Virus record (IMG/VR): IMGVR_UViG_3300046798_000079
Span: 1-39,297 of that record
DNA from: a virus
Length of the DNA stretch: 39,297 nucleotides
Reading direction: 5' to 3' (one strand)
Below the pieces are notes generated by a model that was given only the letters and a program-made list of their open reading frames with translations, was not told the DNA's origin and ran no database searches. The position numbers and the translations under genes are program-made. Of the stretch, positions 2,179 through 20,775 are shown piece after piece. Position 1 is the stretch's first letter; each line of letters begins with the position of its first letter.

Positions 2179-2470
2179 TGGAGTCCTCCGTCTCGCGCGC
2201 AAGCTCGCGGAGCTGAGCTAGACGGTGCTCGCGCCTGACCAGGTTTTGCCGTGCGAGCGTGATGGCCTCCTCTTCTTCGAGGACCGCCTTGAGGATGGCG
2301 TCAATTGCTGTGAGGCTGACCTCATCTGGCGTTAGGTATTCACGATGCTGCGAGGCCGGAGCGCGAACGACGACTATTCGCTTCGCCGTTTTCTTGAGGA
2401 TCTCTGTCGATTCAATAGTGGGCGCTCCGTTGTTCCAGCCGAAGACGGCGCGATAGTGACGTTCGCTCAT
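2171..2470 (-). CDS. unknown protein, 99 aa, helical C-terminus
   Basis: ATG at 2470 has AAGGAG eight bases upstream, and the preceding gene ends five bases away (TAG 2478-2476). The N-terminal third is strand-like (HYRAVFGWNNGAPTIES, RIVVVRAPAS). The C-terminal half is a likely amphipathic or coiled-coil helix (DAILKAVLEEEEAITLARQN, EHRLAQLRELARETE). Function unknown. Confidence 0.75.
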   Translation of the reverse strand: MSERHYRAVFGWNNGAPTIESTEILKKTAKRIVVVRAPASQHREYLTPDEVSLTAIDAILKAVLEEEEAITLARQNLVRREHRLAQLRELARETEDSNG

Positions 2471-2475
2471 CGGCT

Positions 2476-4353
2476 CTACTCCTTCTTCTTCGCGCCCGCG
2501 GCGCGCAGCTCGGACAGGACTCGCTCGGCCTCTTTGAGAGCATCTCGTGTTCCGATTCCGGTTCCTCCGGCAGTGGCGAGATATCTCGTCGTTCTGTGGA
2601 GATTCTCCAGCGCCGCGACGCAGCCGCCGAAGCGGGAGCGGAGATACTCGGTCGCGGAATCGAGCCACGGTGCCTCCAACTCGCACAGGTCGTTCATCTC
2701 GTTCGCCATGCGGATGAACTCGAACACGTCGCCGGTGGCGGGCGGCGGAGCGGGTTCTTTCAACTGGTCGGGCGCGTCGTCGAAGTCCTCGGCCCTGTAC
2801 TCCACGAGTTCCTCCCCGCACTTCGGGCACCATCCCATGCCGTTCTCCTTGGGCGTGCCGTTCGGCAGGCTCCACGCGACGCCGCACGTTCCTTCCCAGA
2901 GGTCGCCATCCTCGTCGTCGTGCGACCACACGCATGTCGGCCGCGCCTCTCCGCCAGCGGGCGAGGCGAGCGGGGCGGTGCGGAGCCTTTCGATTAGTTC
3001 CGTTGCGAGCCAGTGAACGCCGCTCGCGAACTGCCCGCTCTGCCTCTCGTGGTTCTCAGCAATCCATTCAAGGTACTCCAGCGTCTCCGCGTACTCGCGC
3101 GGCGCGGAGGCAGCCCGATTCAGCTCGGCGCAGACGACCTCGGCGCCACCTTCGCTGTTGTTGCGGAACGAGCCCTCTCGAAGATGCACGACCCACACAC
3201 CGCCTCGGCTGAGCGCGACCGCCAGGCCGATCTCGTCGCGCTCAATCTTCCACGGGCCGGTCAGCGCGGCGAGGTTGGGCGGCGCGGAGGCAGCCGAGGG
3301 CGCACGACCCGCAGGTCTGCCCCCTACCTGAGGCACAAGCGGGCTTCGCCCCTCAGGATCGTCAGGTGTCTTGGCGCCTTGCCGTGGCGCCCCCGGCTGT
3401 TCTTCTTCGGGGCGGCGCAGGGCCGCTCGGATCTGTGATCTAGCGGCGGCTACAAGCCTGGGCGGTTCATCGCAGTACGCTAACGCGCGATCGGCGGTAT
3501 CCATTGCTGCGCGAAGCCTGTCGTTTTCTCGTACGGCGCGATCAATCAATTCGGCCATGTCCTCGTGCGGCACCTCACAGTGCGGGTCCACGTTGGCGGC
3601 TCGATATGCCTCCAAGACGACGTTGCCTTGCCCAGGCCATGGGGCTGAACGCAGCCGCTCGACCTCCGCCTCCAGCTCGGCGACTCGCTTCTCGGCAGAG
3701 TCCATCGCACGGCCACGGTCCTCGCACGTCTGTCGTAGCTCGGCGACGCGCCCTCGGTGCATGTTCGTCCGCTCGCATTGCTCGTGGTAGAGCCGCTCAG
3801 TGTCTGCGATCCGCGCGTCGCGGGTCGCGCACTCGGAGCGAGCGAAGCGCGTATAGCGTGCCGACTCCGACTCTACGGCGTCGGGATGGCATAGCTGCCC
3901 GAACTCCTGTCGTAGGAACGTTCGCGCCCGCTCGACCATCGCCGCGTCGCGCGCGGCTGGAGAGGCGCCCGGGGCAGGACTCGAACCTGCTCCTTGAGGC
4001 AGTGAGCCGCTAGCGGCGTGCCCCTCTGCTCCCGTTACAACACCCGGGCCTTGTTCCTGTTCCGCGGAGCCGGACGCGAGGGAGGCAATCTCGTCGAGCG
4101 TGAAGCCGAGGACCTTCGCAGCCCACGCGCATTCAGCGTCGTAGCCCTGTTCGAACTGCGACCGCCTCTTCTGCTGCACAAGATTCGCCGCCTGCTCCAG
4201 CCCGGCTCTGCGGCCACGAGACTCGGCGGCGCGCAGAGCGCAGGCGATCTCTTCTTCCTTCGCGGCCTCGCTGACTCCTTGCGTAGCGATTAGGTCGAGT
4301 GATCGAAGTAGGAGACGCGCATCCTCGCGCGACGGTTGGGGGGCGGGGGTCAC
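2476..4353 (-). CDS. composite unknown protein with coiled coil and Cys-rich domain, 625 aa
   Basis: GTG at 4353 makes a GTGA overlap with the preceding gene. The protein is a mosaic. Residues 1-95 are helical, and 100-135 are a Gly/Ala/Pro linker encoded by the tRNA-like element described separately. About 190-260 is a coiled coil with repeated heptads (AEKRVAELEAEVERLRS). A proline-rich segment follows near 375-410, and about 415-470 holds a small alpha/beta part (WKIERDEIGLAVALSRGGVW). From 473 there is a probable zinc site with Cys474, Cys490 and the pair WCPKCGEE at 508-515. The last 90 residues are helical. The Cys-rich part resembles small phage zinc proteins normally encoded alone, so this may be a fusion of several short genes. 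No enzyme motif is visible. Confidence 0.75.
   Translation of the reverse strand: MTPAPQPSREDARLLLRSLDLIATQGVSEAAKEEEIACALRAAESRGRRAGLEQAANLVQQKRRSQFEQGYDAECAWAAKVLGFTLDEIASLASGSAEQEQGPGVVTGAEGHAASGSLPQGAGSSPAPGASPAARDAAMVERARTFLRQEFGQLCHPDAVESESARYTRFARSECATRDARIADTERLYHEQCERTNMHRGRVAELRQTCEDRGRAMDSAEKRVAELEAEVERLRSAPWPGQGNVVLEAYRAANVDPHCEVPHEDMAELIDRAVRENDRLRAAMDTADRALAYCDEPPRLVAAARSQIRAALRRPEEEQPGAPRQGAKTPDDPEGRSPLVPQVGGRPAGRAPSAASAPPNLAALTGPWKIERDEIGLAVALSRGGVWVVHLREGSFRNNSEGGAEVVCAELNRAASAPREYAETLEYLEWIAENHERQSGQFASGVHWLATELIERLRTAPLASPAGGEARPTCVWSHDDEDGDLWEGTCGVAWSLPNGTPKENGMGWCPKCGEELVEYRAEDFDDAPDQLKEPAPPPATGDVFEFIRMANEMNDLCELEAPWLDSATEYLRSRFGGCVAALENLHRTTRYLATAGGTGIGTRDALKEAERVLSELRAAGAKKKE
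3966..4049 (-). tRNA. tRNA-like element with an aberrant anticodon arm, inside a CDS
   Basis: Read on the minus strand from 4049, the seven bases GCCCGGG pair perfectly with CCCGGGC at 3973-3967. The T arm GCAGG-TTCGAGT-CCTGC (3990-3974) abuts the 3' acceptor strand exactly as in a tRNA. A D-arm-like hairpin (TTGT / GCAG with A14, A15 and GGG in the loop) follows the two linker bases T8 G9. The anticodon stem GGGGC/GCCTC is present, but its loop is 19 bases, not 7, and contains the perfect palindrome GCCGCTAGCGGC; no U33 can be placed. The 3' end reads G-CCT rather than CCA. The surrounding CDS reads through in frame. It may be a tRNA relic, a tRNA mimic or an attachment-site derivative; a functional decoding tRNA is unlikely. 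The length is 84 bases. Confidence 0.45.
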
Positions 4354-5108
4354 TGGCGCTCCCACTCCGTGAACAGGCGCCCAACGAGCGCCCAGTTCTT
4401 GTATGGGCCTGCGGCATCGCACGCCGCGTAGAGCTGCTCGAGCGCCGTCGCCCGCTCGCTCTTCATTCTCGCGTACCGCTCGGCGAACATGGGCGTCCTG
4501 CGCCACTGTGGGCACGTCTGCATCTCGGTCAGGAGGATCTCGAGCACGAGGAAGTCACGGCTGGCTCGCTGCACGCCTGGGACACGCCAGGCGGCCTCGC
4601 AGTCCGCCATGGTGGGGAAGCCTCCCACGAGGGCGAAGATGGTCGTGGGGAGCGTCCCAAGCTCATCTCCGGCCACGGGGAGGAGCGCGCGCGCTTCCTC
4701 TGTCGTCAGCGCCACGAACCCGCACTGCGACCATAGCTCGGTCGTCATGGCGTAGAGGCCGGATGCGTCGGCCTGGAAGGCGTCGCCGTCCACGCCATCG
4801 AAAGCCTCCAGAGGCGTGACGAGCCCTACGGGATCGCTGCCTAGCTGCGGCTGGTGTAGGCCCCCCGCAACGTCGCCGGCTGTCGTGCGCCCTGCATCGC
4901 CAGCCTCTGGAGAAGAAAACTGGACGCCCGCCTCCGCTACGTCACCAGGAGGAGAGAGAGGAACCCGCGCGGCTGGCTGGAGGGGTCGAGTCTCCGCCTG
5001 GCGGGCGTCCAGAACGTGCTGCTTCTCGCCGAGAAGCATGTAGAAGCATAGGGCGACTACGCCCACGAATCCGAGCGCAGAGAACGCGATGCCTAGATTG
5101 TCCTTCAC
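4350..5108 (-). CDS. membrane-anchored unknown protein, 252 aa
   Basis: GTG at 5108 lies in a GTGA overlap with the preceding gene. Residues 6-26 form one hydrophobic helix (IAFSALGFVGVVALCFYMLL) followed by positive charge, so the remainder is probably on the far side of the inner membrane as a signal-anchored protein. Residues 30-110 are proline/alanine-rich and flexible. About 120-250 is a compact region with several Cys and Trp (ATTELWSQCGF-like segment, CPQWRR, YAACDAAGPYKNW). No family recognised. Its stop overlaps the start of the 625-aa gene. Confidence 0.75.
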   Translation of the reverse strand: MKDNLGIAFSALGFVGVVALCFYMLLGEKQHVLDARQAETRPLQPAARVPLSPPGDVAEAGVQFSSPEAGDAGRTTAGDVAGGLHQPQLGSDPVGLVTPLEAFDGVDGDAFQADASGLYAMTTELWSQCGFVALTTEEARALLPVAGDELGTLPTTIFALVGGFPTMADCEAAWRVPGVQRASRDFLVLEILLTEMQTCPQWRRTPMFAERYARMKSERATALEQLYAACDAAGPYKNWALVGRLFTEWERQ

Positions 5109-5806
5109 GGCTTCCACTCCAGCGCGCGGCGGGCGATGTTGCGCGGCGCATCTGAGCGGAACTCGCAGCGCCCCAGCGAAGGATTCTCTGCAACAAACCG
5201 CTCGGCGTTCTCGGCGATCTCGCGCAGCGCCTCCTCGAGGACCCGCTCGCGGGTCTTGGGCGCTGGCGGGCTGAAGATCGTGACCCCGTTGCCGTCCCAT
5301 TCAACGCTCGCGCCTTCTTCGAAGCCCCAGGACTTGCACTCGGCGGGCGTGAGCGGGCGGCGCGACTTCCCGGCCGGCGGCTCATTCGGCTTCGTGATGG
5401 TCGAGCGGGCGAGGTCGTGCGCTTGCATGACGATCTCACTCCGAGCAGTCAGCTTCTGGAGCAACAGTATGGCGATCTCATCCGCACGCGCGTCGGCGGC
5501 GCCGAGCAGCTTCCGGAGGCACTCCTCCGTGTGCGTCCACACGTCTGACGGGTACAGCGCGCATGTGGCGCCACCTCGTAGGCCGGCCGTGTCTAGCGCG
5601 CCAGGAATCAGCTTGCGCAGCCGCTTGTAAGCGTCGCTCAGGTCGTGCTCGGCCTGCTGCCACTTCTCGCGCTCGGCGTCGGCGGCCTCGCGGGCGAGCT
5701 GCACCGCCATCTGCCGCGTGTACGACATCGTGTAGCCAGGCCCAGGCATGTCAGGGCCGACAATCAATTGCAGCGCCCGCTTCTCTATGTCGAACGGCTG
5801 GCTCAC
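5105..5806 (-). CDS. unknown protein, 233 aa
   Basis: The start is GTG at 5806 (GTGA overlap); the much longer frame upstream runs through two other genes and is rejected. The protein is mostly helical and charged, with AVQLAREAADAEREKW, AYKRLRKLIPGALDTAGLRG, a segment resembling helices that repeat in other small phage proteins (EEALREIAENAERFVAENPS), and a basic C-terminus. Function unknown. It lies between the resolvase-side 83-aa gene and the membrane protein. Confidence 0.75.
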   Translation of the reverse strand: MSQPFDIEKRALQLIVGPDMPGPGYTMSYTRQMAVQLAREAADAEREKWQQAEHDLSDAYKRLRKLIPGALDTAGLRGGATCALYPSDVWTHTEECLRKLLGAADARADEIAILLLQKLTARSEIVMQAHDLARSTITKPNEPPAGKSRRPLTPAECKSWGFEEGASVEWDGNGVTIFSPPAPKTRERVLEEALREIAENAERFVAENPSLGRCEFRSDAPRNIARRALEWKP

Positions 5807-7788: not shown

Positions 7789-8046
7789 GCTCCAGTCGAG
7801 CGGATCGAACACACGGCTGCCCTCCATCCGTGTCACATAGCGGATCGGGATGCCGAGGTAGTAGATCCGCTTGCCCTCGTTGAAGAACTCCGGCACCGAG
7901 TGCCCGAGCGCGAAGCCCACCGAGTACGGCCGCCAGTTGGGCGCGTCGGTCGTCTTGAACGACGGTTCCGGCTCGACCTTGGCTTGGCGCAGCGCGAACG
8001 GCAGCCCGAGCGCGAAGCCCAGCAACGTGCGGCGTGTGACGCTCAC
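7771..8046 (-). CDS. small secreted or membrane protein with possible Tat signal, 91 aa
   Basis: GTG at 8046 forms a GTGA overlap with the tail spike stop. The N-terminus VSVTRRTLLGFALGLPFAL has a twin arginine (Arg5-Arg6) followed by a short hydrophobic stretch, which resembles a Tat signal peptide or a signal anchor; the motif after RR is only a partial match. The rest is soluble (YSVGFALGHSVPEFFNEGKR, YYLGIPIRYVTRMEGSRVFD). Its last residues AVPKP are the same as those of the tail spike, and 21-bp direct repeats lie at its end and at the tail spike's end. It may have entered by recombination at that repeat. Function unknown; export would be unusual for a phage accessory gene. Confidence 0.7.
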   Translation of the reverse strand: MSVTRRTLLGFALGLPFALRQAKVEPEPSFKTTDAPNWRPYSVGFALGHSVPEFFNEGKRIYYLGIPIRYVTRMEGSRVFDPLDWSAVPKP

Positions 8047-8060
8047 GGCTTCGGCACCGC
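8040..8060. repeat. 21-bp direct repeat, copy 2
   Basis: This copy is identical to 7768-7788. It covers the AVPKP-stop end of the tail spike gene and the GTGAGC start of the gene downstream. Deletion between the copies would remove the 91-aa gene exactly and restore an intact tail spike end. Confidence 0.9.
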
Positions 8061-9182
8061 CTGCGCCGTGTACCGCGACAGCGGGATCACGGCATCGTGC
8101 GTCGGAATGCCGGCCTCGTACGTCACGTCCACGCCGAGCGCCTGCGCGTACTCCTTCGCCTGTGGCGTGTTGTTCTCGCGCACCGTCAGGCTCGGGATGT
8201 TGCTGAGCTGAAGCTGAAGGTTCTGCCCGTAGACGGCGTTCTGCTCGATGAGCAGCGACTTCGCCACCTTGTGCGTGCCGGCGAACAGGTTGCCGACGCG
8301 GATGCATGGCGTGAGGTTCTCGGTGCCCGGCCCCGCGCGAAACAGATTGCGGCGGATCACGATGTTGCCCGTGGCGAAGCCCTTGCCGATCTGCCCCGTG
8401 TTCGCGTCGTAGAACGCGGCGATCCCGTGGTTCGGGTCGTCGTCCACCATGACCGCGCGTGTATGGCTCGCATCGGGCGGCGCCCAGAACTCGTTGCCCT
8501 GGATGAGCACGTCGCAGCCGACGCCCTGGAGCACGACGCCGCCGCCCCCGCGTGAGGACCACGGGCGATACCAGTCCTTGAACGTGCAGTCGATGACGGC
8601 GAGCGTGACCTTGGGGCCGGCCCAGAGTGTCTCGATCGGATCGAACCGACCCTTGATGCACTCGGCCGCGCACTCGTGGAAGCGCAGGCGCTCGTAGCGG
8701 CCCCCGCCAGGGCCGGCGTAGGCGTGCCCGTAGAAGGCGTGCTCGCGTGCAGGCCCCCACCAGATGTCGCCGTCTCGCGCGTCGATGTTGCACTGGTAGC
8801 TGAAGATGCCCCAGGCGACGCGGCCGTAGGTGGGCGAGTTCTCCTCGGCGATCAGCTCGAAGTCGGCCAGCTCGAGCTTGAACTTCTTTTTCACCCCGGC
8901 CTTGTTGTCGCGGCCGGCCTGGATCGCAGCGCGCCCGTGGCCGTGCAGCGAGAGCGACTCGAAGCGCACGATGCCGTCGTGCTGGTCGATGCCGATGGTG
9001 GTCCACACGCCCGAGCTGGGGCGGATGTGCGTCTTCCCCTTGCCGGCGCCGATGAAGCGCACGCCCGCGTAACCCTGCGAGAGCCAGAGCGCCGGGTTGT
9101 ACTGGCGCGTGCCGTTCTCCCAGCGGCCTCCGATGTCGAACCCGGGCACGTCGCCCTCGGGGAGCGGGATGTCGTACAGCAT
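8043..9182 (-). CDS. tail spike with parallel beta-helix, 379 aa
   Basis: The protein is likely the receptor-binding tail spike, which may degrade a surface polysaccharide. From about residue 45 it shows the repeating short strand and turn pattern of a right-handed beta-helix of the pectate-lyase type (GVRFIGAGKGKTHIRP; GIVRFESLSLHGHGRAAIQ; KVTLAVIDCTFKDWY; GCDVLIQGNEFWAPPDA; GNIVIRRNLFRAG; KSLLIEQNAVYGQN). The first 45 residues would attach it to the virion. ATG at 9182 overlaps the preceding stop (TGATG); the longer frame upstream enters the 56-aa gene. It follows the giant ejected protein, the usual place for a spike gene. No catalytic residues can be assigned by eye. Confidence 0.82.
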   Translation of the reverse strand: MLYDIPLPEGDVPGFDIGGRWENGTRQYNPALWLSQGYAGVRFIGAGKGKTHIRPSSGVWTTIGIDQHDGIVRFESLSLHGHGRAAIQAGRDNKAGVKKKFKLELADFELIAEENSPTYGRVAWGIFSYQCNIDARDGDIWWGPAREHAFYGHAYAGPGGGRYERLRFHECAAECIKGRFDPIETLWAGPKVTLAVIDCTFKDWYRPWSSRGGGGVVLQGVGCDVLIQGNEFWAPPDASHTRAVMVDDDPNHGIAAFYDANTGQIGKGFATGNIVIRRNLFRAGPGTENLTPCIRVGNLFAGTHKVAKSLLIEQNAVYGQNLQLQLSNIPSLTVRENNTPQAKEYAQALGVDVTYEAGIPTHDAVIPLSRYTAQAVPKP

Positions 9183-9352
9183 CACGAGCTTCTCTTTCGT
9201 CCTGCGGCGGCCATCTTGTGCATCCGCTCGTTGCCGTACTTCTGCGACCCGATCCACGCAGCGAGACGCTTCGCGTTGCGCACGCCTGGCCGCTTCTCCA
9301 GCTTCGAGGTCAGGGCCGCGAACCGTTCACCGCTGCCTAGTTTGGGCTTCAT
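9182..9352 (-). CDS. small conserved phage protein, 56 aa
   Basis: ATG at 9352 sits in an ATGA overlap with the stop of the giant gene, and the frame ends in a TGATG overlap with the tail spike start. The sequence has the pattern of small phage proteins of about 60 residues: GSGERFAALTSKLEKRPGV, then a helix NAKRLAAWIGSQKYG and a basic end MAAAGRKRSS. Such proteins often sit near virion genes, but their function is not known to me. Confidence 0.75.
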   Translation of the reverse strand: MKPKLGSGERFAALTSKLEKRPGVRNAKRLAAWIGSQKYGNERMHKMAAAGRKRSS

Positions 9353-12300
9353 TTCAGGAGGGGCTTGAACTGTCTCGGGGCTGGCAGCGTCACGGTCGCC
9401 TTCTTCTTCTTGTCCTCGTAGGTCTGGAGGCTCGCGCCGAAGATGCCGAGGATACCGAGCGCCGCACCCTCAGGCACGCCACGGTCGCGGAGAGCCTTCT
9501 CGAGATCGGAGAAGGCCATGGCAAGGCGCCACGGGTGCGTCGGCAGTTCCTTCAGGTCTTGCGCGATCGTCTCCTTGGTGAACGGCTCTCCGGTCGGCGT
9601 GTTGCCTTCCAGGAAGTTGATCGGGATGCCGATGGTCGGCGAGAGCTTGGTGCGCATGAAGCGGCCGAGCGTGGCCGCCGTCTTCGCGTCCTTCTTGCCC
9701 TTCGCGGCGAGGCCGACTGCCTGGAGCGCGTCCAGACCGATGCGCGACATCAGCACCGTGACTTGCGACAGGCCGGCGAGCGGATCCACGCGCGTGTTGC
9801 CAAACCGCGCCTTCCCGAGGTCGGGCGAGGTCAGGTCGTGGCTTATGTCTGTGTAGCCCTCGGCGCTGCGAGTTAGGCGCTTCATCCTGTCCTTCTCTGT
9901 CTCCATCATCGCGCCGTACATCTTGGTGAGCGCGTAGAAGCCGGCGAGGCCGATCAGGAAGCGCCCGTACTGCTTTGCCACGGCCACGCGGGTCTGCGCC
10001 GTGCCGCCGTAGAGCGGCTGCGCGAGGATGAGCTGGAAGCGACTGAGGAGCAGACGCGGAGACCAAAGCGGAATCGCCAAGGCGCTGACGGCGCCCGCGA
10101 ACTTGCCTGGGTTGCCGCGCCCCGTGCCGATGTTGACCGCGTTGGCGATGGCCTTCCCCTCGGCGACGGTCGGCGGAACCGGAAGGCCCTGCACCATCGT
10201 GTCGAAGATGTAGGAGCGCTGGAGATTCAGGAACGTGATGAAGGCGCGGTTCGACGCCTTGATGCCCGGGATCATGTCGGAGATCGCCGAACGGATTGCC
10301 TCTTCGTGCGGCCCGATGTCGTCGCCGTGCTTCGTCAACTGAAGTCCGGAGGCTTCGCCGTACTGCGCGAGCGGACGGTTCCGGATCATCACGTCGGCCT
10401 CGAGCGCGCCACGCTCCGAGAAGGCGGCGCGCAGCATCCTCGGAATGTGCTCGGTGGCCGTGACGACTGGGTGCCCAAGTGAGAAGAAGCCGCCCTGACG
10501 CAGGACCGCCGAGAGGTCCCAGGCCGTCATGACGGCCTTAGGCAGGTCGATCACCTCCTTGACGCCGGCCAGCACCTTCTGCGTCTTCGTGCGGTTGGCC
10601 AGCGCGAACATGCGCTTCCGCGTCTCGAAACGACGACGGACGGTTTCGGCATCGGCCTTCGCCTTCGTGGCCTCGGCATCGAGCGGCAGCGGCGGCTTCT
10701 TGGGCCTCGGCCCGAAGTCCTCGGTAACCATGCGCTCCTTCAGGCGCGCGATCTCGTTCGCCTTGCGCGTCTTGTACGCCTTGAGCGCCATCCGTTCCTT
10801 CTTCGCGGCGATCTCCTCGGGCGTCTTGGCGGGCACGGCCGCCTCCTGCCAGGCGCTCAGCTCGGCTCGCAGCGCGTCGCGGCGCGCGCGCATGGCCTCG
10901 AGCGCGGGCGTGGTCGGACCGGGCTTCGCCTCGGCCTTCGACGTGTCGCCTGCCGCGAGGCGCGTCTCGAGGTCGGCCAGCGACTTCTCAACGGCGCGGG
11001 TAGCCGCTGCAATGCGCTCCTCGGGCGTGCGCGGGCGTGCCTCAGCCGGGAAGATTTCCTCGTACTGGGCGCGGAGCACGTCGCGGCGCGCGCGCAAGTC
11101 CGCCACCTCGGCGTCGGTCGGCGGCGGGGCGCGCTCGTCGATGGTGCGCTTCCCGCTGGTGATCTGCTCGGAGAGGTCGGCGATCTGGTTGCGGAGCCGC
11201 GTCTTCGTCGCGTCGAGCGCCGTGCGGAGCTGCGTCTCAGGGCTGGTCGTCTTGATGCCGAGCTTCCGCTTGAGGTTCTCCACCTGCTTGATGAGGCCGC
11301 GCTCGGTGTCGCTCGGCGTGGGGTGCTCGACGCCGCTCTTCTTGGGCGGGATCTTGGCGAGCAGGTCCTCGATCTTCGCCACCTGGCGGAGTTGGCCTTG
11401 GTAGTCCCGCAGCTTCACATCGACCTCGCCCTTCGAGAGCGGGCGGAAGTTTCCGTATCCGGCGATGGCGTCGAGCGTCTGCCGGCGCGTGAACGGAATG
11501 CCGGCGTCGTTCAGCGTCTCTTGTACGGCCGTGACGAGCGCTTCCCGGTCGTTGACGCCGTTCTCTACTGCGTGCCGCGCAATCTCGCGGATCTGCTTCC
11601 CGAGCGCGGGCAACTCGGCGCCGGCCTCGAGCTTCTCCTTGATGTGCCCGGCCAGTTCGGTCGCGCGCTCCTTGCGCGCCATGTCCCACGCCTCGCGCAG
11701 ATAGGGGCGGATGTGCTCGCCGATGCGGCCCACCATTTCGTCGGCCCAGGCGGCAAACTGGCGTGCCCCTCGTTCGATGCTCTTGGCGGCGAGTTGCGCC
11801 GTCAGCTTGAGCGTCTCCGGGTCGAGACCGCCCGCGAACGCGCCGGGGCGCTTCGCCTTCGCGGCGAGCTGCGAAACGATGTCGTCGATCTCGGTCGAGA
11901 GTTGCGTGATGCGGGCTTGCCGCTTCGCCTGGCGCGGTCTGGAGCTGACCTCGGCCTTGAGGCGCAGCATCGCGGCTTCGGCTTCCGCTTCTGCTCGCCC
12001 CTGCTCGGACTCGGCCAGGCGGCGCTCGAACAGCTTGTTCTTGGTCGAGAGTTCGTCGTACTCCTTGCGCACCGTCTCCAACTCGCTCGGAGTCAGAGGC
12101 TCGCCCTTGTCGGCCTGGAGCGAGCGCTCCATCTCCGCGAGCGAATAGTCGCGGTTGACCATCATCTGCCGGATGTCGAGCGCCTGGGCGTTGGTCGTGC
12201 CTGCGCGCGTCACCACATCGCCAGCGCGCGCGTAGGCGGACCGTGCGGCATCGACCTCGGCTTGCGATCCTTCTCCTCGGTTGAGCGCATCTTCGGCCGC

Positions 12301-15300
12301 GTCGCGTTCGTTCGCCAGGCGTGTGACCTCAAGCGCGAGGAGCGCGCCCTCGTCCGCATCCGGGGGCCGCTCGGTCGCCTCGAGGTCGTTGACCAGCTTC
12401 TCGCCAGCGCTCGCGTCCCGGTCGAGTGCCGCCTTGGCGCGGTCGAAGTGCTCGAGCCGCGTGACGCTCTCGCCGTGCTGCGGCTCGGGCAGGCCCATGT
12501 CGCGGAGTTCACGCTCCACGGTCTTGTTCTTGATCCCGGTCGGCTGCGGCGGCGGCCCCGGCAGAGGTTCGATGAAACCGCCCGTCTCCGTGGCAGCCCT
12601 GGGGGGCTCCTCCGCTGCTACTGCGGGCGTCGATTTCTCGACGGGAGGAGCCGTCCCACGGACGGAGACGGGCAGAGCGGGTAGGCGCGCGATGGGCGGC
12701 TGTCCGGGGCGGTTTGGCGTAGCTTCCTCGCCCTCGATCGCGCCGCGCGTGACGAGCTTGCCGTAGACGGCGCGCATCTCGCGGCTGATCTTGAGATCGA
12801 CGGCGCTGCCCCGGATGCGCGTGTAGATTTTCGAGAGCCAGTCGCGGAACTTCTGGAAGAGGCTGCGCAACTCGGGCGTCGGGGCCTTGCCGTCGCGGAG
12901 GAAACGCTCGAAGCCGCGCGCGAACTTCTCCTCGGCGTCCTTCGTCCAACCGTTCTCGGCGCCGGCCCACTTCTCGGCCACGTCGATGTCGGCATTCGAG
13001 ATGCCGGCGCGCGATGTCTCTGGCACGGAGCGGTCGAGCAGCCAGCGGCGCGCGACGTGGGCAAGCTCGTGCGCGCCCGTGGACACGTCAGGCGCGTTCA
13101 GCGCGCGGATCAGGGCATGGCCGGCATCGGTGAACTCGACGGACCCCTTCTCGCCCTGGAAGAGCGGGAAGCCCTCGGCCTTGATCTTCTCGCGCGCCTC
13201 GGGCGACAGCGGCATGACGTGCGCGCGGCCGACGTGCTCATCGACCTCGCCCTTTTCCGGCTTCGCGCCGAGCGGCTTGCCGAGTTCGGTGGCCTGCGCG
13301 ACGAGTTGGCGGTCGTACAGATTCTTGGCCCATTGGCCGCCGATCGCTAGATCGGCCTCTGTCGTTACGCCGTCTCTCTCGTTCTTGATCCGCTCCGCCA
13401 ACTCCTTCGGTACGACTGAGCTGATGTCCTGCCCTACGAGCGAACGCAGCGCGCCGTCTGCGGTCTTCACCGTGCCGTGCCCGTCGATGAAGACCTGATG
13501 GGACTCGCCTGTTGTCGTGTGGATTTTGATGACCCGCCGGCCCTCCGTGAGGCTCGGTCCCCACGTCAGCCGGTCTACAACCCGGCTGAGGTTGTACCGC
13601 TCGGCGACGATCCTGCCGGTTGACCACGAGATGCCATCGAACCCGTGCTCGGCGGCGTAGGCGAGTGCGCGCTTGAGTGTGAGGCGCGACCACGAGGCGC
13701 CCTTGAACGGCGCATCGGGCACGCTCGTCGATGGTTGGTCTTCAACCTCTTCGAGGTTGTCGCGGTAGCTCTGCGCTTCCTCCAGATCGCCCTCGCGCGA
13801 GTGCAGTTCATCCTGGGCTTCCTCGATCGCCGCCTCGTGGTCCTTCAGCGCCTTTACTGCGTCGGCGACCTCGATGCCCTTGCGCACCCACGCGATGCGC
13901 TCGTCGGTGTCCATCGGGCGCTCGCCGTTCCGGTCGTAGGCGCGCGGCACGAGGTACTCGGCGTGCGTGTGCGCAAGCTCGTCGCGGAATGACTTTGCTT
14001 CGTTCTCGGTGAGATTCTCCCACGGGACGCCGAGCGTCGTACCTTGGCCCATCTTTCGGGCCAGTGTCCGCCATTGCCAGAACGTCTCGTAGTACTCCTG
14101 GGCCAGCGCATTGGCCTTGTCCTCGTAGCTGTCGCCGTTGTCGTCCTCGGGGCCGTTGTTGCGCAGGTTGTCAAGGGCTTCCTCCGCGTCGTGTCGGGCG
14201 TCGTGGGCGTCCTGTAGGCGCTCGTTTGCCTCGTCGATCTCGTCTTGGTTGCCGCGCTGGCCACCTTCCTCGTAATCCTCGTCGTAGCCCTCTTCGCGCC
14301 CGCGCCGGTGCCAGTCGGATTGCACCTCTTCGATGTGGAAGAGCTTGCGGCCCTGCGGGTCGGTGCGCGTCTTGGCGAGAACGTGGGCCACAACGTCGCG
14401 CGTGTCCCAGTGTCCCTGATCGAAGTCCGGCCCGTCCTTCAGTACGAGGAGCAGCTCGGTGTAGTCCCGGCCGCCAGGCTTCATGTAGGACTCGTACTTC
14501 GGGCGGAGGTATGTGCGGTTGCGCGAACTGTCCTCGACCACCGTTCTGTTGAACTCAAATTGCCGCAGCAGGTTCACGGCCGAGCCTAGCGTGTCGGCTG
14601 TTCCGACCAGCTGCCCATTGGTGGCGTCCCAGGCCCGCCAGGATCCGGACCAGTCTGATCCGACAACCTGATACTGGTGCCCGTTTGAGCGTGACTCGTA
14701 CCTGTAGCGCCAGTCGTTCGTTTCGCTGTTGAGAACCTCCTGGCCGTTCCCGTCAAACACCGGGATCCGTTCGGCGTCTCCAGACACGATGAATGAGATG
14801 TCCTCCGGGCCATTGAAGCGCCGCGCTTCGATGCGGCTTCCGCCGCGCTGCACCTCGATGAGGTGAACTTGCCGCCGGCCTACGAATTCGGCGATCTCGT
14901 CGCGCGTCAGCTTGCCCTTGCGCCGCGCCCAGTCTTCGAGACCGATCCAGTTGGCCTCTTCCTCGGCGCCCTTCGTCTTCTTGATGTGCGCGAGAAACTG
15001 CTCGGCCGTGCCGCGCGGCTGCCACTTCTCCAGCGAGCCGAGCAGGTTCGAGAAGTACCACTGTGGTCCCTGCTGGTGAAGCGCGCCGCTGCCGGGTTTT
15101 CCGCCCTTGATGACGCGGATGCGCGAGCGGTCGAGGCCCATCGCCTGCGCCAGTGCATCGAGCGCGACAGACTGCTCGCCGGTGACGGCGAGCGCCGACT
15201 GCAACGCCTTCGGGTGGAACGGTTCGCTCTGCTCGGGCGCCTGGCGCTCGACTTCGGGCGGGCCGGGAGGAACGCCGGGCGTCTTCTTGCCCTTGCCTGC

Positions 15301-17973
15301 TTGCTCTGTCGCGGCCTTCTCGCGCTGCGCCTGCAGTTCTTCGGGCGTGGCGATCTTGACCTCTTGGCGCGGCCGCTCGCCGCGTTGCGCGCGTTCGGCT
15401 GCGAGCTTGATCGCGCCCGGCGCCTGCTGCAGCTCATCGGGCGTCAACGTCTCGCCGCGCAGGATGCGGTCGGACGCCTCCTCGGTCGGCGTCAGCGCGC
15501 GCGGCGGCTTCCCTTCGCCGAGCGGCTTGTTCTCGGCGCGGCGCTCCTCGCCCGCGAACGGCTCTTGCCCTGCGTCGAAGGCATCGAGCGCGCCTTGCGC
15601 CCGTTGCATTGCCGCCTGGAGATCGTCGGTCGCTTGCCGCTCCTGCTGCGATCCAATCTCGGCGGGCGGTTGTCGAGTGGCGTATGCGAGATCGGCAAGC
15701 GCCTCGTCCAGCTCGGTCGGCTTGAGGTTGCGCGCGGCTCGCTCGTCGATGACGCGCTCTGCGCGTTGGAGCAACTCGGGAATCGCCAGTTCGTCCTGCG
15801 CCTCGGCTGCCGTGCCGCTCTTTTTGTGCTCGTCAACAAGTCCTCGCAGCACGTCAGCAACGTCCGATGCCCGCGCCTTCGGTGCCTCGATCGTCGAACC
15901 CTCCGGAGTTTCCGGAGACTTCGCCTCGGCTGCGGCCGGGAGCGGTGCGTCCGTGGCCGTTTGTCTTTCGGTCTTGATCCGCGCCTTGCGCATGTCGCGC
16001 AAAAAGCCCCTCGTCTCTTTGTTGTAGGCGCCCCAGTTGCCCTCATCTGGCGGGTTTTCTAGATCGACGAGTGACGCTTGCAGCGCCTCTTCGGTCCGCC
16101 TGGCCGTCTCGAAGTCTTTGTTATCGAGAGCGTCGTGGTGAAGCGAAACAGCGCCTTCTAAATCGTGTTGCTCGGTGATGTCGCGAAGCTCCTGTTCGAC
16201 CTTTTCCGCGGCGCCACGAAGAAGGGCGGGCGGCGAAGGCTCCGGAGTTTCCGGAGGGTTCGACTCGGCCTCGACGATGCGCACCGGGACGTGATCGAAG
16301 CCGAGACGATCGGCGGCCTCGATGCGGTGGTGCCCGTCGAGCACGGTCAGCTTGCCGCTCGGCGAACGCTCGGCGATCACGGGCGGCAGTTCCTCGCCCG
16401 CGTGCATCTTCTCGGCGAGCGCCATGACGCGCTCTTCGTCGATTCCAGACCGGAAGCGCTCGGCTTGCTTGCGCTCTAGATCGGCTATCGGCGTCTCGAC
16501 GACCGGCGCGAGCTTGGACTTGGGCGGGACATTGAATTCGGCTGCCGGATGCTCGCCGTGGGCGTAGGTTTTCGGTGCTTCCGGGGCCGGCTGACCCGGA
16601 ACAGGAGCAGGCACGCCCTGCGCGCCTGGTTCACCGCCGGCCCCGGTTGCGCGCTCTTCGCCGATCGGGCCGCGCCCAAGGAACTCGCCGCCGCCTTCGA
16701 GTGGCTTGCGCGGGCCGCGCGGACCGAGGAAGTCAGCGCCGCCGATCGGCCCCTCCTCGCCGCCGCCGCCCTTCGGCTTCTGGGCGCCCTTCGCGCGCCC
16801 GGCGCCGGCCAACTCGCTCGTCCCGTGGACGATCGCGCCGACCGTCCCGCCGAAGAGCAGCCCGAGCGCGCCCGCGTGCCCGGCGCTCTCCAGGCGGTCA
16901 AGGTAGGTCATCTCGCGCGGCGTGAGCGCGGTACTGGCCGCGTCGAGCATCGCCTGCTGAAACGTCTGCTGCGCGCCCTGGGTCAGGGTCTCGGTCGCCA
17001 GCGCGGTTGCGAAGCGCGTCAGGGAGCCGTGGGAGGCACGCTCGAGCTTCGAGAGGATCGGAGCCACCCCGAAGACCTGCGTGGCGCCCACGCCGAAGCC
17101 GAGGGCCATGCCGAGCATCGCCTTGTCCTCGTCGCCACCGGTGGCGGCAAGGATGTCGTGGTACATCGGGACGGCCACCTGGGCGCCGCCCGCGAGGATC
17201 GTCCCGGCGCGTGACCCAAGCGCCTCGGCGGTCCCCAGGAACGCCTCCCGTGCCCCTAGGCGCCCGGCAAGGCCGAGGGTCTCCGGGAGGAGCGCGGCGG
17301 CGCCCTCGCCCGCCACAGCCCCGGCGGCGCCGCCAGCGAGGCCAGCGCCGGCCAGTGGGGCGAACTGCCCGAGCATGTAGGGGAGCTGGTGGATGCCACC
17401 GCCGCGCAGGGCCGGCGGCGATGCTTGCTCGGCGGCCGCGCGCAGCTCCTTGCCGTAGGCGGCCATCTTCGAGGCCCCGGCGAGGATGTTCGGAATCTGC
17501 TGCTGCAACACCTCGATCGGGATGACGTGCGAGAGTGCCTTGAACGCCACGTCGGGCGCCTCGGCGAGTGCGGCCAGGCCCTCGCTCGCGCCGATGGCGG
17601 CCTTCTCGAGCGGGCTGGGCGTGTAGACGTGGACGGCCGCCGCGATCTCGTTGTCGATGTCGTCGGGCTCGTCGCCCTCAAGCGGCGCGTTGCGCTCCTC
17701 CTTCAGCCGCGCCGCGATTTCGCGGTCGATCGCGTCATCGGTCTCGACCGGCTCTTGCGGCGGCGCCTGCTGCACCCGCGCAAGAGTAGGGCTCGCAGCC
17801 TCCGGAAGAAAGCTGCGAGCCCTTGAACGTTGTACCGGGGCACGGTACACCGCTGGCGTCTTACTTCCAGGCGCATCTTCGCCGGACGAGCCGCGCCGAT
17901 CAACCCTAAGTCCACCCTGCGGGATAGTGGCAAGCCCGGAACGACCCTCCCTGCTGGTGGACACGGCCGGCAC
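9349..17973 (-). CDS. giant polyvalent protein with ParB-like and metallopeptidase domains, 2874 aa
   Basis: This is a very large multidomain protein, probably packaged and injected with the DNA. Domains in order, numbered from GTG 17973: residues 1-70 low complexity; about 105-385 helical and Gly/Ala-rich hydrophobic; 485-570 ParB/sulfiredoxin-like fold with DGHHR at 546-550; 600-900 acidic coiled coils; about 920-1605 a large phage polyvalent-protein domain (LFHIEEVQSDWH at 1211-1222, FKGASWSRLTLKRALAYAAE, GFDGISWSTGR, a C-terminal LSPEAREKIKAEGFPLFQG); 1608-1740 zincin metallopeptidase with HELAH at 1635-1639 and the EEKFARGFERFLRDGKAPTP helix; 1850-2450 long coiled coils; about 2480-2874 a hydrophobic C-terminal domain of the polyvalent class. 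It follows the internal virion genes, as in podoviruses whose ejected proteins build a DNA channel. The start is uncertain: GTG 17973 lacks a ribosome site and GTG 17772 is a plausible alternative. Confidence 0.88.
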   Translation of the reverse strand: MPAVSTSREGRSGLATIPQGGLRVDRRGSSGEDAPGSKTPAVYRAPVQRSRARSFLPEAASPTLARVQQAPPQEPVETDDAIDREIAARLKEERNAPLEGDEPDDIDNEIAAAVHVYTPSPLEKAAIGASEGLAALAEAPDVAFKALSHVIPIEVLQQQIPNILAGASKMAAYGKELRAAAEQASPPALRGGGIHQLPYMLGQFAPLAGAGLAGGAAGAVAGEGAAALLPETLGLAGRLGAREAFLGTAEALGSRAGTILAGGAQVAVPMYHDILAATGGDEDKAMLGMALGFGVGATQVFGVAPILSKLERASHGSLTRFATALATETLTQGAQQTFQQAMLDAASTALTPREMTYLDRLESAGHAGALGLLFGGTVGAIVHGTSELAGAGRAKGAQKPKGGGGEEGPIGGADFLGPRGPRKPLEGGGEFLGRGPIGEERATGAGGEPGAQGVPAPVPGQPAPEAPKTYAHGEHPAAEFNVPPKSKLAPVVETPIADLERKQAERFRSGIDEERVMALAEKMHAGEELPPVIAERSPSGKLTVLDGHHRIEAADRLGFDHVPVRIVEAESNPPETPEPSPPALLRGAAEKVEQELRDITEQHDLEGAVSLHHDALDNKDFETARRTEEALQASLVDLENPPDEGNWGAYNKETRGFLRDMRKARIKTERQTATDAPLPAAAEAKSPETPEGSTIEAPKARASDVADVLRGLVDEHKKSGTAAEAQDELAIPELLQRAERVIDERAARNLKPTELDEALADLAYATRQPPAEIGSQQERQATDDLQAAMQRAQGALDAFDAGQEPFAGEERRAENKPLGEGKPPRALTPTEEASDRILRGETLTPDELQQAPGAIKLAAERAQRGERPRQEVKIATPEELQAQREKAATEQAGKGKKTPGVPPGPPEVERQAPEQSEPFHPKALQSALAVTGEQSVALDALAQAMGLDRSRIRVIKGGKPGSGALHQQGPQWYFSNLLGSLEKWQPRGTAEQFLAHIKKTKGAEEEANWIGLEDWARRKGKLTRDEIAEFVGRRQVHLIEVQRGGSRIEARRFNGPEDISFIVSGDAERIPVFDGNGQEVLNSETNDWRYRYESRSNGHQYQVVGSDWSGSWRAWDATNGQLVGTADTLGSAVNLLRQFEFNRTVVEDSSRNRTYLRPKYESYMKPGGRDYTELLLVLKDGPDFDQGHWDTRDVVAHVLAKTRTDPQGRKLFHIEEVQSDWHRRGREEGYDEDYEEGGQRGNQDEIDEANERLQDAHDARHDAEEALDNLRNNGPEDDNGDSYEDKANALAQEYYETFWQWRTLARKMGQGTTLGVPWENLTENEAKSFRDELAHTHAEYLVPRAYDRNGERPMDTDERIAWVRKGIEVADAVKALKDHEAAIEEAQDELHSREGDLEEAQSYRDNLEEVEDQPSTSVPDAPFKGASWSRLTLKRALAYAAEHGFDGISWSTGRIVAERYNLSRVVDRLTWGPSLTEGRRVIKIHTTTGESHQVFIDGHGTVKTADGALRSLVGQDISSVVPKELAERIKNERDGVTTEADLAIGGQWAKNLYDRQLVAQATELGKPLGAKPEKGEVDEHVGRAHVMPLSPEAREKIKAEGFPLFQGEKGSVEFTDAGHALIRALNAPDVSTGAHELAHVARRWLLDRSVPETSRAGISNADIDVAEKWAGAENGWTKDAEEKFARGFERFLRDGKAPTPELRSLFQKFRDWLSKIYTRIRGSAVDLKISREMRAVYGKLVTRGAIEGEEATPNRPGQPPIARLPALPVSVRGTAPPVEKSTPAVAAEEPPRAATETGGFIEPLPGPPPQPTGIKNKTVERELRDMGLPEPQHGESVTRLEHFDRAKAALDRDASAGEKLVNDLEATERPPDADEGALLALEVTRLANERDAAEDALNRGEGSQAEVDAARSAYARAGDVVTRAGTTNAQALDIRQMMVNRDYSLAEMERSLQADKGEPLTPSELETVRKEYDELSTKNKLFERRLAESEQGRAEAEAEAAMLRLKAEVSSRPRQAKRQARITQLSTEIDDIVSQLAAKAKRPGAFAGGLDPETLKLTAQLAAKSIERGARQFAAWADEMVGRIGEHIRPYLREAWDMARKERATELAGHIKEKLEAGAELPALGKQIREIARHAVENGVNDREALVTAVQETLNDAGIPFTRRQTLDAIAGYGNFRPLSKGEVDVKLRDYQGQLRQVAKIEDLLAKIPPKKSGVEHPTPSDTERGLIKQVENLKRKLGIKTTSPETQLRTALDATKTRLRNQIADLSEQITSGKRTIDERAPPPTDAEVADLRARRDVLRAQYEEIFPAEARPRTPEERIAAATRAVEKSLADLETRLAAGDTSKAEAKPGPTTPALEAMRARRDALRAELSAWQEAAVPAKTPEEIAAKKERMALKAYKTRKANEIARLKERMVTEDFGPRPKKPPLPLDAEATKAKADAETVRRRFETRKRMFALANRTKTQKVLAGVKEVIDLPKAVMTAWDLSAVLRQGGFFSLGHPVVTATEHIPRMLRAAFSERGALEADVMIRNRPLAQYGEASGLQLTKHGDDIGPHEEAIRSAISDMIPGIKASNRAFITFLNLQRSYIFDTMVQGLPVPPTVAEGKAIANAVNIGTGRGNPGKFAGAVSALAIPLWSPRLLLSRFQLILAQPLYGGTAQTRVAVAKQYGRFLIGLAGFYALTKMYGAMMETEKDRMKRLTRSAEGYTDISHDLTSPDLGKARFGNTRVDPLAGLSQVTVLMSRIGLDALQAVGLAAKGKKDAKTAATLGRFMRTKLSPTIGIPINFLEGNTPTGEPFTKETIAQDLKELPTHPWRLAMAFSDLEKALRDRGVPEGAALGILGIFGASLQTYEDKKKKATVTLPAPRQFKPLLK
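15901..15917. repeat. 17-bp hairpin repeat within the giant gene, copy 1
   Basis: CTCCGGA-GTT-TCCGGAG is a perfect seven-base-pair inverted repeat with a three-base loop. An identical copy lies at 16240-16256. Both encode PETPE-type linkers between domains. Confidence 0.8.
16240..16256. repeat. 17-bp hairpin repeat within the giant gene, copy 2
   Basis: This copy is identical to 15901-15917. Both copies sit in proline-rich linkers, consistent with slippage or recombination between linker sequences, or with RNA structure between domains. Confidence 0.8.
17789..17849 (-). repeat. two strong inverted repeats at the start of the giant gene
   Basis: GGGCTCGCAGC (17789-17799) pairs perfectly with 17812-17822 across a 12-base loop, and TGTACCG (17831-17837) pairs with CGGTACA (17843-17849) across a five-base loop. 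No T run follows either, so they are not standard terminators. If translation of the giant gene starts at GTG 17772 they lie in its 5' leader and could control initiation; if it starts at 17973 they are inside the coding region. Confidence 0.6.
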
Positions 17974-17989
17974 GCGGAGTCCAAGGCCC

Positions 17990-18301
17990 CAACGTCCGCC
18001 GCTCCGATGGGCCTGAGCGGCGTCCGCGCCTCAAGCGCGCCCGGAGACCACGACTACCGGGGGGTCGGTGCAAAGGTGTAATCGTGGCTCCCCGAAACGA
18101 AAGCGACCGCCTGACCGGCGAGCGTCTTCCGGGGGTCTCCCGAGAGGCCCTCACTCCGCTCCCACCTTCCCAGCGAGGTCCGGTCAGAATCCGGAGGGCG
18201 AGCCCCGAGGCGAGCCCGCATCTGAGAGAAGAGGGTGAAACCCTCCCTGCCCGCTGGTCCTTCCGGGAGGGGCGAAGCCCCGTGAGGGTTGACCGCTGCA
18301 A
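17990..18301 (-). ncRNA. hairpin-rich non-coding region, candidate structured RNA
   Basis: No convincing gene covers the 328 bp between the nuclease stop and the giant gene. Five or more stems are visible: 17998-18021 (GCCGCT/AGCGGC); 18043-18057 with 18078-18091 (14 pairs, one bulge, one G-U); CTGACCGG 18111-18118 with CCGGTCAG 18180-18187; 18134-18149 (GGTCTC/GAGGCC); 18231-18245 (GAGGGT-GAA-ACCCTC); 18269-18281 (GGGGC-GAA-GCCCC). AACCCTC at 18239-18245 can also pair with GAGGGTT at 18284-18290, so two stems compete for the same bases, as in attenuators and riboswitches. It could be a leader controlling the giant gene or a free phage RNA. I do not recognise a known RNA class, and group I intron core sequences were not seen. 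Confidence 0.4.
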
Positions 18302-18901
18302 TCAGAAGAGGCTGGGAGGATCCCGGCGAGCAACGCGAGCGATCCGGGGATTTTCCGGGGGCGCCGTCCAGGCGACCTCGAGCGGCATCAGCCATGCGTA
18401 GCCGAAGGACCACGCCGGCACTTCCATGCGGATGTCGAGTTGTTTCCGTCGCTCGAACGCGGCGGAGCTGCAGCACCCACGGAGGTCAACGGCCATGCGC
18501 CCATCTCGGTCCTCTGTCTCGGGCAGAACCCATCCGAGCACGAGCCAATCCGGGGGCGTCTTGGGTGGCCATCTGTCGCGCTTCACGATCAGATTTCCGG
18601 CCCACCCGGCGGCTCCCTTCACGTCCACCTTGCCGATTCCTGGGAGGTCGAAGTCGTACCCGGGGTCGGTCTCACCGGCGAGGACGAGCACGCTGGAATC
18701 CGGGAGTTTCATGAAGCGTGAAAACGCGAGTTCTGCGGCTGCTCCGAGGAGATCAATGGCTCCGGAGCTGACGCGCCCGTCGTGACGCTTTCGCTTCCTG
18801 TTGGCGGCGTCTCGCGCCTCGGCGATACGGGAGACCAGGCTACGCTCGACTTCGATGTACATGGCGGCGAGGTGGTCTTGGCCTTGCGCTCGTTCCGGCA
18901 C
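18302..18901 (-). CDS. PD-(D/E)XK-type nuclease, 199 aa
   Basis: The sequence carries the signature of a PD-(D/E)XK nuclease: a helix AIDLLGAAAELAFSRFM (Glu57), then GYDFDLPGIGKVDVKG with Asp83 and the Asp93-x-Lys95 pair, and GNLIVKRD two strands later. Small phage enzymes of this kind act as homing-type endonucleases or resolvases. Its place between internal virion genes, next to a hairpin-rich non-coding stretch, suggests an inserted accessory or homing gene. The start is GTG 18901 or ATG 18862; neither has a good ribosome site, and a stop lies 24 bases upstream of the GTG. It overlaps the basic ORF 18709-19080 in another frame. Confidence 0.65.
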   Translation of the reverse strand: MPERAQGQDHLAAMYIEVERSLVSRIAEARDAANRKRKRHDGRVSSGAIDLLGAAAELAFSRFMKLPDSSVLVLAGETDPGYDFDLPGIGKVDVKGAAGWAGNLIVKRDRWPPKTPPDWLVLGWVLPETEDRDGRMAVDLRGCCSSAAFERRKQLDIRMEVPAWSFGYAWLMPLEVAWTAPPENPRIARVARRDPPSLF

Positions 18902-19080
18902 CGTCTTCGGCGCGTCGCCTTCAACTCATAGGTCACGACGTTGACCGTCCAGGCCCCGATACTCGTCGGGTCGATGGCCTGCACGCCACTCTGTCGCCAC
19001 CAGAACCGCCGCGCGCGCTCAGCCCGTTTCTTCGTGCGAACCGACTGGTGGATGCGCGGTCGTCGGCGTCCGTGTTTCAT
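18709..19080 (-). CDS. basic ORF overlapping the nuclease gene, 123 aa
   Basis: ATG at 19080 has CCAGG just upstream. The first 60 residues look coding: a basic stretch (MKHGRRRPRIHQSVRTKKRA), then WWRQSGVQAIDPTSIGAWTV and a strand VVTYELKATRRRR. The remaining 63 residues overlap the nuclease frame and look like antiphase sequence. Either this is a short basic protein with a long overlapping tail, or a frameshift near 18900 once joined it to the nuclease as an N-terminal domain. No slippery site is obvious. Between 19081 and 19227 I see no gene. Confidence 0.4.
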   Translation of the reverse strand: MKHGRRRPRIHQSVRTKKRAERARRFWWRQSGVQAIDPTSIGAWTVNVVTYELKATRRRRCRNERKAKTTSPPCTSKSSVAWSPVSPRRETPPTGSESVTTGASAPEPLISSEQPQNSRFHAS

Positions 19081-19227
19081 CCTGGAGACTCTACACCGCC
19101 TCGGCGGCGGCGGGGAAAGCGCCCGGCCCGTGATTCATGAGCCGATCGGACACCAGGCCAGCACCGGGATCTCCCCGGGCAACACAGCGAACCGAGCGCT
19201 GGGCCAAGGGTAGCGGAAAGCGCCGAG

Positions 19228-20775
19228 CTACATGCCGCCCGCGCCGGGATGCAGGTGCGAGACGGTCTCGCCGAGACTCGGACCGGAAGCCTTACCGGCG
19301 GCGCGTGTGCGCTTTCCGCCGAGCTGCCCGGCTCGCAGCTTCAAGAGCGCCGACGTGAGCGCGCCGCGCACGAACGGGTCGCGCGGGTCGAGTCCGAGCG
19401 TCTTCGCCAGGCCCATGCGCAACTTCCGGATCTCGGCCGGCTGATCGGTGTCCATCGAGATGGCGGGCGTGCCGTTGTCGGCCACGAACGCCTCGATCTG
19501 AGCGGTAGCCTTGGCCTTGCCCTCGGGCGCGATGGTGCGGTACTCGCCCTGCGCGGCGGGCTTCTCGCGCGCCTGCGGCGCCTGCGGCGCCTTCGCCGGC
19601 TTCTCAGTTCCACGTGGAACACCACCGACATTGACCTTCTTCCCGAGGTTGTCGGCGCGTCCGTACTTCGGCTGATTCGTGACGGTGCGGTTCTCGGCCG
19701 CCGCGTCCTGGAGTTGCCCGGCCCTGATCTGCGCCTCGGGACTCATCTGGAGCGCCGGATTAGGCCCGCTTTGCGTCTGGTACGAGGGCGGCGTCGCCAA
19801 CTCGCCGGCCGCCGCTTGGGCACCGAAGAGCACCGCCTCGAGGCCGCCGACGGACGCCTCGCCGTCGTTCTTCGAGCGGAAATCCTCGTGCTGCGTGCGC
19901 GCCCACTCGCCCTGCGCGGCGCTCACCTTGTCGAGGAGCGCCTGGCGCACCTTCGGATCGGTGGCCTGGATCGCCATGCCCTTGAGCGTGGAGATGAGTT
20001 CGCCGGCCCGCTTGTCGCTCTCCTCCCAGCCGGCGGCGCGCTTCATGACCTTCGCGTGGAGGTCGTACGCCTTGGCCAGCCGCTCGCGCGTGGCGCCGGG
20101 CGCGACCGTCGGCGGGCCGCCCTTCGCCATTGAGTGAATCGACTGCTGGATGGGCGTGATGAAGTCGCGGCCCTGCTCGGGCGTGATGACGCCATCGACC
20201 ACGGCGCCTTGCACGGCATCGGCCTCGTGTTGGTACGCCTGGGCGTGAATGCGCTGCTTCTCCTGCGCCGTCTCCTTCGTGAGGTACGCCGTGGCGCCGG
20301 CCGCCGTCATCTGCTTCGCAAACTCGATCTTCGGCCCCATCGTCTCCTCGACGTTGCCGAAGCCCTCGGCCACCTTGGCGAAGAACTTGTTGCCGAGGAT
20401 GCCGAACGGTCCGAGCGCGCCCTCGGGCGACTTCACGGCATCGGAGATCGCCGCCTCAGTCGCGTCGCCGCGCTGTTGCTGGGCGATCTTCTCGAGGCCC
20501 TGCAGCGCGGCGGTCTTCTGGGCCTCGAGCGCCTTGTCGCGTTCCTCGCGCGCGGCGGCGATGTTCGCCTGCCCGAGCACGCGCGCCTTCGCGTTCTGCT
20601 CCTCGATGGCGAGTGCGCGCTCCTTGAGCGCCTGCTCCTTCTCGAGTTCCCCGGCGTGGACGCGCTCCTTGTGCGCCTCGTTCACGCCCCCGGCGATCTC
20701 CTTGCCGGCGTCGCCGATGTACTCCCACCACGGGCGGGAGTTCATCGTGTAGTCGCGGAACGTGATGCGCGGCAT
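19228..20775 (-). CDS. internal virion protein, 515 aa
   Basis: This is a likely internal core (ejection) protein. Residues 25-110 form a long charged coiled coil (LEKEQALKERALAIEEQNAK; EERDKALEAQKTAALQGLEK). A helical middle follows, and the C-terminal third is proline/alanine/lysine-rich and disordered, with an APQAPQA repeat. It lacks enzyme motifs. It sits between a gp14-like internal protein upstream and the giant polyvalent protein downstream, as internal virion genes do in T7-like phages. ATG at 20775 lies three bases after the preceding stop. Assignment rests on order and composition rather than a family match. Confidence 0.7.
   Translation of the reverse strand: MPRITFRDYTMNSRPWWEYIGDAGKEIAGGVNEAHKERVHAGELEKEQALKERALAIEEQNAKARVLGQANIAAAREERDKALEAQKTAALQGLEKIAQQQRGDATEAAISDAVKSPEGALGPFGILGNKFFAKVAEGFGNVEETMGPKIEFAKQMTAAGATAYLTKETAQEKQRIHAQAYQHEADAVQGAVVDGVITPEQGRDFITPIQQSIHSMAKGGPPTVAPGATRERLAKAYDLHAKVMKRAAGWEESDKRAGELISTLKGMAIQATDPKVRQALLDKVSAAQGEWARTQHEDFRSKNDGEASVGGLEAVLFGAQAAAGELATPPSYQTQSGPNPALQMSPEAQIRAGQLQDAAAENRTVTNQPKYGRADNLGKKVNVGGVPRGTEKPAKAPQAPQAREKPAAQGEYRTIAPEGKAKATAQIEAFVADNGTPAISMDTDQPAEIRKLRMGLAKTLGLDPRDPFVRGALTSALLKLRAGQLGGKRTRAAGKASGPSLGETVSHLHPGAGGM

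Follow-up and report, generated by a model that had tools for sequence, protein, structure and literature searches.

Comparison of three phages establishes, through covariation, that positions 17985–18157 of the DNA analysed here (the window, a 39,297-base IMG/VR virus record with 67.5 % G+C) specify a conserved, pseudoknotted RNA on the plus strand. This RNA, designated element 1, lies back to back with a separate minus-strand element, element 2 (17903–17780), composed of a predicted promoter and two hairpins. By the same kind of comparison it is element 2, and not the RNA at 17985–18157, that is the leader of the neighboring giant gene.

A non-coding stretch among minus-strand genes

Nearly all genes of the window are on the minus strand, as judged with a gene picker based on codon-position G+C. 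The hairpin-rich stretch is flanked by a minus-strand ORF (18302–18901, 199 aa) and by a giant ORF, listed at 9349–17973 (−), that contains ParB- and DarB-like stretches. A preliminary description had seen no credible gene between them, in agreement with the coding signal: the codon-position G+C pattern disappears from ca. 17750 to ca. 18300, and the absence of codon-phase bias among substitutions relative to homologues (12/11/15, 17/15/23 and 38/29/26) argues against ordinary coding. Coding through a 131-aa minus-strand ORF (17906–18301) was considered and rejected; its frame is partly kept in the related phages G005 and G017, but without phase bias, and Pfam and PHROGs gave no match for the candidate coding reading of the stretch. 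The 199-aa ORF is convergent with the RNA and is the nearest ORF on its downstream side in the window; no relatives of its product were found in the databases searched.

Where the 515-aa gene and the giant gene meet (17775–19228), the sequence is hypervariable, as are its counterparts in G002 and G003; in the relatives, this region includes genes of Ig-like, TPR-like, holin-like and HNH type, partly on the opposite strand. A short basic peptide can be read at ca. 18925–19057 (−), similar to G002 2061–2174 (51 %) and G005 12923–12789 (71 %); found at a differing genome position each time, it is possibly encoded by a small mobile gene. Identity between the window and G005 is uneven, with proteins from 181–5300 and 8043–9257 being 93–100 % identical and the capsid, portal and giant proteins only 25–44 %, which is due either to strong mosaicism or to chimeric assembly. 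Because this metagenome contig is partly near-identical to G005, the way this region is arranged could stem from assembly or mosaicism.

Two conserved elements in related phages

The phage relatives G002 and G003 were found through a capsid-protein scan. A 92-base DNA match in G003, immediately ahead of its giant gene, revealed a block of two hairpins in which CGTTCAAGGG is conserved, and a pattern scan on this block led to G005 and G006. In a pattern scan on ACACCTTTGCANCGACC, all matches other than G005 and G006 were chance, as were both matches from a genome scan with the leader hairpin. A scan with a 1306-aa protein family yielded 19 members, including G017, G016 and G003.

The non-coding region of G005/G006 is 75 % identical to the window over about 410 nt (446 columns), from ca. 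17777 to ca. 18183, with no significant similarity seen outside this conserved block in that comparison, and G017 carries the same element as the window (E 1.4e-20; 73 % identity over 182 nt). The similarity to G005 reaches ca. 17777 because the second, minus-strand element is situated there. Element 1 is common to the window, G005/G006 and G017, three distinct sequences from one phage family; element 2 occurs in single copy in each of the window, G003, G005, G016 and G017. The DNA of element 1 is 73–75 % identical, while the giant protein shares only 39–44 % amino-acid identity with that of G005, and the gene neighbors differ, with a giant gene in the window and a terminase operon in G005 and G017.

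A weak match of the RNA model to G003 (13.2 bits, plus strand; E 0.00035 when 921 bases were searched and 0.17 when 440 kb were) tentatively suggests this phage as a possible, diverged fourth homologue. The match lies at a syntenic place (L025, 3577–3741, +), and an HNH gene (3776–4216, +) is found directly after it.

Blastn searches of annotated phages and plasmids, with the window, G005 and G017 as queries, gave chance-level pieces only, and the covariance model R2 had no match in 396 Actinomycetota genomes (strict filters, no positive control). In the Rfam search proposed in the preliminary description, run with Rfam 15, no family reached the gathering threshold in the window, and at E up to 10 the locus gave only sub-threshold, chance-level matches for the window, G005 and G017. 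The fold of element 1 appears to be absent from these libraries.

Fold of the plus-strand RNA

Element 1 matches R2, which was built on the window, G005 and G017, so that their matches hold by construction, and comprises four stem-loops plus a pseudoknot. The pseudoknot pairs GGCCCC at the 5′ end (17985–17990) with GGGGUC (18061–18066) within the loop of P2, and in G017 two of its pairs are changed on both sides, from G.U to C-G and from C-G to U-A. Helix P4 (17997–18022), with 8 pairs between 17997–18004 and 18015–18022, coincides with a stem of the preliminary description that proved real and conserved; two of its pairs are changed on both sides, and in G005 and G017 it includes G.U pairs that are possible on the plus strand only. 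Two-sided changes are also seen in helix P3 (18025–18039; 18025–18029 with 18035–18039), numbering one pair in the MAFFT alignment and up to three when G017 is realigned by hand; in this phage, P3 reads CAGC-GAAA-GCUG, with a GAAA tetraloop on the plus strand.

The 14-pair stem formerly described at 18043–18057 and 18078–18091 is likewise real, with 10 + 4 pairs and one bulge, and corresponds to the conserved helix P2 (18043–18046 and 18048–18053 with 18082–18091) and its inner helix P2c (18055–18058 with 18075–18078), together spanning 18043–18091. One pair changes from A-U to C-G in G017, the remaining pairs are invariant, and the loop is near-invariant (CUACCGGGnGGGU...GCAAAGGUG). Helix P1 (18132–18151; 18132–18139 with 18144–18151) forms its 8 pairs in each of the three phages; three of these pairs vary via G.U, which only the plus strand allows. 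A further helix, P5 (ACGUCC/GGACGU), was omitted from the model because it is broken in the window, though present in G005 and G017.

The stretch originally delimited was 17990–18301; with homologues, the core of the RNA is 17985–18157 (+). Further 3′, the 8-bp pair between 18111–18118 and 18180–18187 is an exact complement in the window but is lost in the homologues. No homologue was found for the hairpin-rich stretch at 18225–18300, past the end of similarity to G005, which is specific to the window. By inspection, the segment at 18240–18245 does have two partners, GAGGGT at 18231–18236 and at 18284–18289, but this region is not conserved; the mutually exclusive stems that had been read as a switch rest on 18225–18300, which the homologues lack.

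Covariation, strand and stability

Given the structure (P4, P3, P2, P1 and the pseudoknot), 119 of 119 comparable cells are paired on the plus strand across the three phages, and six pairs carry two-sided changes, where shuffles gave 2.1 (1 of 500 shuffles). When partners were slid, 38–54 % of the cells were paired, with 0–1 two-sided pairs. Since the structure had been picked on these same sequences, we ran a structure-free search that compared all perfect helices of at least 5 pairs with 500 column-permuted alignments. This identified six covarying pairs on the plus strand, against 0.65 expected (0 of 500), and one on the minus strand, the top two helices being the pseudoknot and P4. The candidate structured phage RNA of the preliminary description is in this way supported by covariation among homologues.

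A first model, in which the whole stretch was a single minus-strand RNA, was dropped because its broken cells (in P1, P3, P4 and the pseudoknot) are A.C mismatches, that is, G.U on the plus strand, and because the structure-free search favors the plus strand. RNAalifold energies were too close to decide between the strands (−64.9 for minus, −63.3 for plus). The stretch does not fold with unusual stability either: 17990–18301 folds no better than shuffled sequence (z −0.21 on the plus and −0.54 on the minus strand), nor does the conserved core (z −0.44), so the shuffling comparison that had been envisaged lends no support. The case shows a real RNA being overlooked by folding energy, in phage DNA of very high G+C content, and detected by covariation.

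A minus-strand leader ahead of the giant gene

Element 2 begins with a predicted sigma70-type late promoter (17875–17903, −), formed by TTGATC (17903–17898) and GAAGAT (17880–17875) separated by 17 nt. The boxes were recognized by inspection and comparison in five phages, and occur at the matching position with a spacing of 17–18 nt as TTGAAC/GACGAT in G005, TTGATG/TAGACT in G003 and G017, and GTCACA/TACACT in G016; a consensus scan made no promoter or terminator call at the positions of element 2. In all five phages the leader starts 2–3 nt after the boxes and runs through hairpin B and a CAAG spacer to hairpin T. In the window, hairpin B (UGUACC/GGUACA, outer AGCG/CGUU) and its CAAGGG spacer (17820–17856, −) match R3 with 49.7 bits; hairpin B of G003 reads UGUACCUG-GAAA-CAGGUACA. 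Hairpin T (17788–17823, −) is terminator-like and is followed by TACTCTTGC; a long hairpin occurs here in five of the five phages, with arms that differ in sequence. Hairpins B and T together are more stable than shuffled sequence (z −4.6 to −6.2), and the minus strand is more stable in every case.

Element 2 precedes either the giant gene or, in G005 and G017, the terminase operon, with the terminase large subunit encoded in the G005 operon after the leader and a similar ORF in G017. The GTG opening the giant gene is situated 12–15 nt after hairpin T in the window, G003 and G016, and therefore the giant gene here likely begins at GTG 17775 (9349–17775, −) and not at 17973. This codon aligns with the GTG of G003 (GTGGCGCAGGCG) and of G016 (GTGCCGCTCCAGG). 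The listed start, GTG 17973, falls inside the conserved control region, and an obvious Shine-Dalgarno sequence was not seen for GTG 17775.

Possible role of the RNA

The preliminary description had left open whether the stretch regulates the giant gene or is an independent RNA, and the latter is favored here. We incline slightly to a stand-alone, plus-strand regulatory RNA that would time divergent late transcription. The plus strand would yield a non-coding RNA of ca. 170–220 nt, folding into P4, P3, P2 and P1, with the pseudoknot joining the 5′ GGCCCC to the P2 loop. It would sit in a divergent control region that holds, within ca. 100 bases, the minus-strand promoter and its two-hairpin, terminator-ended leader, which would drive the giant gene in the window and, in both G005 and G017, the terminase operon. 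The RNA may then act in trans or on RNA polymerase, helping to time divergent late transcription. A stand-alone product is suggested because the window keeps the structure intact though no same-strand gene comes after it there, its neighbor being convergent; a plus-strand promoter or terminator for the RNA was not found. The defined pseudoknotted fold, the near-invariant loop and the clear setting beside a late-operon leader make its role, be it as a trans-acting RNA, an antiterminator or a packaging RNA, directly testable.

A broader proposal, which we make tentatively and at somewhat less than even chance, is that this phage RNA of ca. 170–220 nt, pseudoknotted and acting in trans, represents a new class that moves between the control regions of unrelated operons, on the giant-gene or the terminase side, and that its target of control is the divergent late promoter or the host RNA polymerase. 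As the evidence consists of three sequences from one phage family, such a claim should await more homologues.

A serious rival, if on balance an unlikely one, is that the RNA heads the transcript of a divergent plus-strand operon as its 5′ untranslated region, acting in cis as a put-like antitermination element or riboregulator. Its weight comes from the same-strand genes downstream of the RNA, which start ca. 108 nt past the core in G005 and ca. 117 nt past it in G017 and are homologous by inspection (DVERCLDLVEADGRR / AVERAFRMILADGRR), and tentatively from the weak G003 match, in the matching place and with the plus-strand HNH gene next. The window, nevertheless, has no plus-strand gene after the RNA, the next ORF being convergent, and G017 has promoter-like boxes, TTGACC-18-TACTGT (L075, ca. 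2240–2275), after the RNA and before the GTG, so that transcription of the gene may not have to pass through the RNA. The boxes are a few bases ahead of this GTG, which suggests that the divergent gene is translated without a leader.

It is improbable that the stretch is instead a DNA element (operators, an origin or a packaging site) whose inverted repeats mimic RNA stems. The divergent transcription units on either side of it in G005 and G017, and the almost invariant P2 stem, would suit such a site, but the one-strand G.U changes, the two-sided changes in P3, P4 and the pseudoknot, the GAAA loop and the pseudoknot itself are unexpected in DNA sites. Least probable of all is a minus-strand 5′ leader regulating the giant gene by attenuation, for although the stretch is upstream of that gene, and a separate leader with a terminator-like hairpin exists at 17903–17780 (−), a riboswitch or attenuator would share the strand of the gene and lie in its leader, whereas the evidence for 17985–18157 places the RNA on the plus strand, the site is upstream of the predicted promoter, its counterparts in G005 and G017 adjoin the terminase operon and are not near the giant gene, and G016 has the leader yet no R1 match.

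Comparison with known systems

Structured phage RNAs are known as a kind, and to our knowledge few come from phages of uncultured hosts. The stand-alone plus-strand RNA that we favor can be compared with several of them. GOLLD, ROOL and OLE are several hundred bases long, and GOLLD is phage-linked. These are large structured RNAs without a protein product (PMC12286853); element 1 differs in its length of ca. 170–220 nt and in having no Rfam match even at E 10. The phi29-type pRNA, a phage RNA that the packaging motor needs, is encoded next to packaging genes, as element 1 is in G005 and G017, but element 1 has no Rfam match and in the window is not near a packaging gene. The oop RNA of lambda, of 77 nt and antisense to cII, is also a small RNA, divergent or antisense, from a control region; element 1 exceeds it in size, has a pseudoknot and is antisense to no conserved gene.

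The put RNA of HK022, which mediates antitermination in cis by acting on RNA polymerase, consists of two stem-loops with no pseudoknot. Element 1 is likewise a short structured RNA that could stand at the start of a phage operon, but it has four stem-loops and a pseudoknot and, in the window, lacks a same-strand operon, so that neither its architecture nor the layout of the window is that of a two-stem-loop element acting in cis at an operon start. The late leader pR′-tR′ of lambda (6S RNA, Q antitermination) would be a counterpart of the neighboring minus-strand element and not of the RNA at 17985–18157: like it, element 2 would combine a promoter, predicted in our case, with a short folded leader and, just before late genes, a hairpin of terminator type, in one copy per genome, but their sequences are unlike, and here the terminator-like hairpin ends 12–15 nt ahead of the start codon.
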